Source: Prochlorococcus sp. AG-459-N19 (GTDB taxonomy: Bacteria; Cyanobacteriota; Cyanobacteriia; PCC-6307; Cyanobiaceae). From it: a DNA stretch of 64,000 bases. Made by a program: the position numbers and the translations under genes. The stretch is from contig QCRF01000004.1 in NCBI GenBank assembly GCA_003209375.1, forward strand, positions 33,628 to 97,627, read 5' to 3'. The notes under the pieces were generated by a model that saw only the letters and a program-made list of their open reading frames with translations, was not told the origin of the DNA and made no database searches. Within the stretch, counting starts at the first letter, position 1; every line of letters begins with the position of its first letter. Below are positions 38,300 through 39,371 of this stretch, piece by piece.

Positions 38300-38361
38300 A
38301 AATTAAAATAATTATATAGTTCAAAAAATTTTCTTTATTATGTGCAAACTTTTAAACAGGC

Positions 38362-38446
38362 GGAGAGGTGGCTGAGTGGTCGAAAGCGAACGACTCGAAA
38401 TCGTTTAATAGGAAACTATTCGTGGGTTCGAATCCCACCCTCTCCG
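38362..38446 (+). tRNA. tRNA-Ser (anticodon CGA)
   Basis: GGAGAGGTGGCTGAGTGGTCGAAAGC... CTCGAAA loop, long variable arm, GGTTCGAATCCCACCCTCTCC. Confidence 0.96.
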
Positions 38447-38711
38447 GATTATTTTTCGTGTCTGACATTGTCTGAAGGATTCTGATAGTTTCACAATATT
38501 TTTAAAAAATAGTATTAGCAAGAGTTTTTTCATTTTCTTCTTAAAAATAGTGTCTCATGGTGTCAGGCAGATTCTGGTAATGTCAGATCATTTTTTCTGA
38601 AAGTGTTGGGAGAAATGTTGGGAGAATTTCCTCCGATTTCTTAAAACCTAGTATCTGGCAGTGTCTGTCAGTGTCTGACAGAAGCAAATCGACTTACACC
38701 CTCTCCGGATT
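38436..38711 (+). repeat. direct repeat of the tRNA-Ser 3' end (38436-38450 and 38697-38711), candidate att scar
   Basis: CACCCTCTCCGGATT present twice, 261 bp apart; imperfect similarity continues (TTTTTcGTGTCT / TTTTTaGTGTCT). Confidence 0.75.
38458..38680 (+). repeat. three clusters of 10-bp-phased decamers (consensus about GTGTCTGACA)
   Basis: 38458: gtgtctgaca ttgtctgaag gattctgata; 38550: gtgtctcatg gtgtcaggca gattctggta atgtcagatc; 38651: gtatctggca gtgtctgtca gtgtctgaca. Confidence 0.7.
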
Positions 38712-38938
38712 TTTTTAGTGTCTCTATGTCAGGTTAATTGAGACATTGTCAAACCTTTTTTTTACAGAAAATGTTGGTGGAAATTTAGGTAGATTGGGTT
38801 TGATTTTTAAAATGAATTTTTTTGATTGATGTTAAAAACTTTTAGGAAATAATTTCTAAAGCAGAATCAACTAATTTTTCCTATATTTGCTCAATTCCAA
38901 AGAAGAGAGTGAAAATAGTTAATAATTAACGATGTTTC

Positions 38939-39341
38939 TTAATTAATTTCTTTTATCCATTTAAATTCTATCTTATTAAATTTGTCTATTTTTTCTTGGA
39001 ATAATTCTTTTTTATTGTATTTTGTTCTTTGATTCTTACACCAATTTTGTAGTTTTTGATCTTAATTAGTTGGAGAAGTATGACCTTTGGTTATGAAAAG
39101 TTTTTTCAATGCTGCATAAGAATCGTCCCATCTTTGTTTTACAGGACCCCAAGCAAAATTTAGTTCCTCAAGAAGTTTGATTTTGTCTTGAGATATATTA
39201 TTTTATATTATGTTGCCTTTGTTTCGCACACCAAACTTCTAAATAACTACTCAATGCTGAAGAAGAAGAATCTTTATTATAAATAAAAAGTTTAAAATTC
39301 CTAGATAGATTATTAATAAACAAAGATAATGACTTGGTCAT
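38939..39341 (-). pseudogene. helicase-associated (HA)-domain protein relic
   Basis: Minus strand: MTKSLSLF...YLEVWCAKQRQHNIK* / frameshift / ISQDKIKLLEELNFAWGPVKQRWDDSYAALKKLFITKGHTSPTN*DQKLQNWCKNQRTKYNKKELFQEKIDKFNKIEFKWIKEIN*. Confidence 0.75.
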
Positions 39342-39371
39342 TTTAATTTTGATAAGTGTTACCTTTGAAAG

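Follow-up and report, generated by a model that had tools for sequence, protein, structure and literature searches.

The segment at 38436-38707 of the window (the whole 64,000-nucleotide stretch of Prochlorococcus sp. AG-459-N19 DNA analysed here, G+C 31%, located on contig C4) is a cargo-less member of a family of elements that lack an integrase and target the 3' ends of picocyanobacterial tRNA-Ser genes for site-specific insertion. Clusters of phased decamers, TGTTGG units and a tRNA-derived core constitute the two ends of the element, attL and attR, and, joined, its attP. Over the 261 bp from core to core the order is four decamers, a spacer, four decamers, two units and three decamers. The features of the locus are listed below with the evidence for each.

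38361-38447, + strand: tRNA-Ser(CGA), the integration target, intact after insertion (ARAGORN).
38436-38446, + strand: left att core CACCCTCTCCG within the tRNA 3' end (repeat at 38697-38707; comparison of empty and occupied sites).
38458-38497, + strand: left decamer cluster 1, GTGTCTGACA/TTGTCTGAAG/GATTCTGATA/GTTTCACAAT (sequence and relatives).
38498-38549, + strand: A+T-rich conserved spacer separating the left clusters (cluster-to-cluster distance).
38550-38589, + strand: left decamer cluster 2, GTGTCTCATG/GTGTCAGGCA/GATTCTGGTA/ATGTCAGATC (sequence and relatives).
38603-38626, + strand: two 12-bp TGTTGGGAGAA units, GTGTTGGGAGAA/ATGTTGGGAGAA, candidate integrase arm-type sites (units at both ends of cargo-bearing relatives).
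38651-38680, + strand: right decamer cluster, GTATCTGGCA/GTGTCTGTCA/GTGTCTGACA (sequence and relatives).
38697-38707, + strand: right att core CACCCTCTCCG, a duplicated tRNA 3' end (repeat family D4, spacing 261).
38708 to about 38930, + strand: tandem second-element remnant, consisting of a truncated left end (GTGTCTCTATGTCAGG...) and the start of HSDR_N-type cargo (relatives).
38771-38782, + strand: single unit ATGTTGGTGGAA within the second-element remnant (relatives).

The initial annotation had placed three decamer clusters at 38458-38487, 38550-38589 and 38651-38680 in exact 10-bp register, and all three were verified letter by letter. A further cluster 1 decamer at 38488-38497, which brings the total at the locus to eleven in blocks of 4+4+3, had been overlooked, as had the repeated tRNA 3' end, the 12-bp units and the downstream second-element remnant. 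The 10-bp periodicity also held: base matches at lag 10 across the three window clusters were 6.2 SD over shuffles, and the other lags from 5 to 17 were all at or below 1.7. With both strands counted, the decamer locus was the densest 300 bp in the 64-kb window for decamers matching at 7 or more of 10 positions. In the whole assembly, estimated to be 83% complete, adjacent decamer pairs with at most 3 of 20 mismatches were confined to the tRNA-Ser(CGA) locus and a reversed-pattern control gave no matches; genome-wide dispersal of the decamers was therefore rejected. The perfect inverted repeat CTGTCA-gtgtc-TGACAG reported in the last cluster is present at 38665-38681. It was rejected as an operator on account of its absence from relatives, and it is probably incidental.

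Movement of these elements is implied by comparison of sites among genomes. Empty sites of the form AATCCCACCCTCTCCG/TTAATTTATAGTTTCTGGAAGTC, where the tRNA is followed directly by TTAATTTATAGTTTCTGGAAGTC, were found in at least 10 genomes. In G083, which carries the element, the TTAATTTATAGTTTCTGGAAGTC flank follows the right core as it does in empty sites, and G147 holds a related element beside a matching right flank. The crossover core CACCCTCTCCG is common to attB, attL and attR, as in lambda-type attachment sites; integration at the tRNA is marked by a tRNA-derived direct repeat, and attL and attR surround cargo lacking a recombinase gene, as in non-autonomous integrative elements. A 1.92-kb element was 99.6-99.8% identical in three genomes in which the flanking futA and cobQ genes were 82-93% identical, which points to ends that were recently mobile. 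Together, the empty and occupied sites and the near-identical copies in diverged genomes imply past movement.

Relatives were sought in 200 congeners (Prochlorococcus genomes). The unit pair was found in 26 of the 200, with no match to a reversed control, and in GTDB it was almost exclusive to Prochlorococcus and Synechococcaceae. The 24-bp unit-pair pattern also occurred once each in L115 and L121, contigs labelled as Gammaproteobacteria and Chitinophagaceae MAGs, possibly by chance or through a binning error. About 20 relatives share the tRNA-Ser(CGA) target, nearly all with futA upstream, and elements are additionally inserted at tRNA-Ser(TGA). In some relatives the locus is split, with the left half beside the tRNA and the right half, opening with the same units, up to several kb away, so that the 12-bp units stand at both ends of the cargo-bearing elements.

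The geometry of these ends is strongly conserved. The right end, measured from the last unit to the core, was exactly 92 bp in 28 of 28 distinct copies (25 in the first set and three of Synechococcus type), with identity among the 25 aligned right ends ranging from 48 to 99%; the three Synechococcus-type copies keep the 92-bp length with decamers of the GTCCT type. Among 28 left ends, 25 have their two clusters 92 or 93 bp apart, and cluster 1 in relatives lies 18-21 bp from the core with its 10-bp register kept. The phasing is thus retained in homologous loci, at 5.0-5.9 SD for lag 10 per cluster (21-25 homologues each), and is present in two other decamer alphabets at tRNA-Ser(TGA), GTCCC (L089, L090, L135) and GTTCTC (L091). 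Decamer letters differ among element families, whereas the TGTTGG units are nearly constant. Fixed length combined with drifting letters is what would be expected of a conserved folded nucleoprotein complex, and the multiple decamer alphabets suggest several element families sharing one architecture. Alphabets other than the window type, in 10-bp register, were observed as GTTCTC, GTTCA and CAGATATATC (left ends of L091 and L093; L164:2917-3129), and L091 and L093 have G-rich repeats of their own.

Of the roles proposed in the initial annotation, recombinase attachment-site DNA carrying a phased protein array was upheld, and iterons and a packaging site were not. Neither outcome that the initial annotation had named as refuting, random genome-wide dispersal or loss of phasing in homologous loci, was observed. 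Every array accompanies an att core at a tRNA-Ser and exact-pattern scans of IMG/VR were empty, so that neither an iteron nor a packaging function is supported; both were rejected, given that the locus had no phage or viral-contig matches apart from tRNA-Ser itself. A broader proposal, in which the arrays are regulatory (cargo promoters or repressor operators) or iterons and recombination is secondary, is very unlikely. Cooperative repressors and iterons typically use phased repeats as well, and the A+T-rich spacers could contain promoters, but an identical end type surrounds unrelated cargo or none, the geometry is fixed to the att core and not to any gene, and no replication gene was seen.

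A combined explanation is judged probable, namely a trans-mobilised integrase-less tRNA-Ser element with candidate arm sites in its units and a cooperative decamer array. A trans-acting tyrosine recombinase would recombine the tRNA-derived core, its arm-binding domains most likely contacting the TGTTGGKGGAA units, about five of which would fall within some 290 bp of attP. The right-end unit keeps a fixed distance from the core, and the units would be putative binding sites for an integrase N-domain. The decamers between units and core would be filled cooperatively, most likely with one protomer per DNA turn, and the bound protein would fold the arms and set their geometry within the recombination complex.

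The decamers could instead themselves be the arm-type sites for the integrase N-domain, with the TGTTGG units accessory or mere recombination repeats, a reading we consider a serious possibility though not the favoured one. Lambda-type arm sites are about 10 bp long and may be adjacent, and the N-domain predicted for integrases of this group resembles arm-binding domains. At the autonomous locus L164 a contiguous CAGATATATC/CAGATATATC pair lies between the tRNA and the integrase gene, and repeats of about 10 bp adjoin other integrase genes (L165 type), where they could be arm sites. Eleven decamers are, however, more than an integrase tetramer can contact, and it is their letters that vary by element family while the units stay nearly constant. 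The units also resemble the arm sites of IntS, the integrase of ICEMlSymR7A, for which PMC11963761 gives five copies of TGKTGGTATC within 283 bp of attP, close to the five or so units in about 290 bp here. The same paper places a filament-forming directionality protein near the arms and reports that BldC, an excisionase relative, builds filaments in which each molecule covers one turn of DNA. These two resemblances lead us to favour the units as arm sites and the decamers as an accessory array, and by analogy the decamer binder is somewhat more probably an accessory or directionality protein than the integrase itself. ICEMlSymR7A differs in that it is conjugative and autonomous, encoding both an integrase and RdfS, and PMC11963761, in excerpt, describes no contiguous decamer array. 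An HTH_17 excisionase was rejected as the decamer binder because HTH_17-type directionality proteins were missing from several element-bearing genomes, and the accessory protein therefore remains a putative one.

Cargo would sit between two unit pairs, and recombination of these direct repeats would yield both empty copies and cargo swaps among end types. Core-to-core lengths were 258-294 bp in the six cargo-less copies (the window and five others) and 0.7-8.8 kb in 14 cargo-bearing elements. In the window, the unit pair at 38603-38626 is the putative point at which the left and right ends fused after cargo loss. The empty copies differ in their unit variants (GGGAGAA, GGGGGAA and GGTGGAA), which suggests that cargo was lost more than once. 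An HSDR_N block starting just inside the units was 93.6% identical between elements in which the left ends were only 70.5% identical, and cargo has therefore passed between end types. Cargo was sampled rather than exhaustively counted; the families sampled were MrcB_N + NOV_C, HNH_2, HSDR_N and GIY-YIG, together with the full set of type I restriction-modification genes in MIT 9107 and MIT 9201, both carriers of the GTCCC-decamer type at tRNA-Ser(TGA). This content suggests a bias toward phage defence, often through restriction genes. A 235-236-aa protein was observed beside type I restriction genes at the same kind of site in Prochlorococcus (L090:12716-13426 and L089:4626-5336) and in a Synechococcus-type genome (L206:6804-7511).

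Downstream of the second core, the truncated left end and cargo start make the locus a small tandem array. This second-element remnant matched the left ends and cargo of L051, L052 and L054 at 77-87%. The sequence after it, at 38900-39370, is non-coding and is probably decayed cargo.

Ten reference recombinases were compared with the unit-bearing elements examined, and none had a match inside them. A 409-aa protein by the right end of L039, considered as a hidden integrase in the cargo, proved to be MrcB_N + NOV_C with no recombinase. The elements are therefore presumably moved by an enzyme encoded elsewhere, most likely a 389-aa tyrosine recombinase encoded by a single-copy gene beside hemH (L169:8324-9493, - strand, equivalent to G000:C3:52326-53492). 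This core recombinase was found in 29 of 29 complete Prochlorococcus genomes and 33 of 33 complete genomes of the family. It was the sole PF00589 match in G000 (the window genome) and in the five near-complete element carriers G136, G146, G184, G002 and G098; a protein search of the window genome added one 158-aa recombinase fragment. Arg239, Arg331-His332, His354 and Tyr363 are invariant or nearly so. In the AlphaFold2 model (overall pTM 0.52), residues 3-76 form a confidently predicted helix, three strands and a helix, an N-domain that we judge to be arm-binding-like. Foldseek searches with the model listed XerA, IntI, lambda Int and Tn1549 Int, and a profile search of solved structures returned mostly catalytic-domain matches to Xer, IntI and Int; the score against NF040815 (IntI) was 40.8, with a cut-off of 220. 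The short gap upstream of the gene contained no decamers. The core recombinase is equally common in genomes without elements and so very likely has another, probably housekeeping, role.

An integrase supplied by a tycheposon or another visiting element is the alternative enzyme. Several genomes encode integrases of 391-405 aa in divergent orientation 5' of complete tRNA-Ser(TGA) genes (L089:13642-14817, L093:3804-5000, L165:3810-5027 and L171-L184), and these integrases were set aside as the obvious helper in that their loci indicate the anticodon arm and not the 3' core. The tRNA copies at integrase loci start at the anticodon arm, which would place the exchange point apart from the 3' core used here. 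G-rich repeats were seen beside the tRNA-Ser(TGA) integrase genes, with repeats of about 10 bp in some families. Other integrases (L185-L190) terminate in a 3' half of tRNA-Pro beginning at the anticodon.

These loci also bear on whether the elements are defective tycheposons, inserted by an integrase of their own that has since been lost and now immobile, which is unlikely. Prochlorococcus does have tycheposon-like integrases at tRNA-Ser(TGA) and tRNA-Pro, and tycheposons are the known tRNA-linked elements of the genus (named in PMC10872708). However, no unit-bearing element examined contains an integrase, the integrase loci have tRNA copies, or 3' halves beginning at the anticodon arm, on their flanks in place of a 3'-terminal core, and near-identical copies in diverged genomes indicate recent movement that does not require an internal integrase.

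Tycheposons and additive tRNA islands are the nearest known kinds. Tycheposons of Prochlorococcus, as named in PMC10872708 and PMC10803314, share the tRNA target, variable cargo, att repeats and genus, and deep-branching tyrosine recombinases adjoin a neighbouring tRNA-Ser target. The elements described here differ in lacking a recombinase, in their core-to-core size of 0.26-8.8 kb and in a core that is 3'-terminal rather than in the anticodon arm. The elements carry no deep-branching tyrosine recombinase of their own, the defining tycheposon feature, and are therefore not filed as tycheposons, although the decamer/unit ends may already figure in the original tycheposon description. Methylophilaceae fGI-2 (PMC10872708) has tRNA-target cassettes separated by tRNA 3'-end copies, and Alteromonas fGI1 (PMC4119200) is an additive flexible island of cassettes at a tRNA, both of strain-variable length. 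In excerpt, these two accounts describe the repeats and their cargo without giving the geometry of the arms, whereas the ends here are defined to the base.

Integrons offer a further parallel, in that a chromosomally fixed tyrosine recombinase could likewise serve mobile cassettes in trans. In contrast to integron gene cassettes, which have attC and IntI, the elements have two-armed tRNA-core ends of their own, no attC or attI, a tRNA target and a candidate recombinase with a predicted arm domain. An integron-like system, in which one vertically inherited core recombinase shuttles defence cassettes at tRNA-Ser in trans through 92-bp ends and a decamer-bound filament, is put forward as a tentative and rather doubtful extension.

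The cargo-less scar in the window is accounted for by joined element ends, and for a class of small defence cassettes from a highly abundant phototroph the ends are now defined at the base level. It becomes directly testable which recombinase reshuffles the tRNA-linked islands of Prochlorococcus and Synechococcus. If one fixed core recombinase does serve mobile cassettes in trans, the arrangement would be new, alongside those of integrons and tycheposons.
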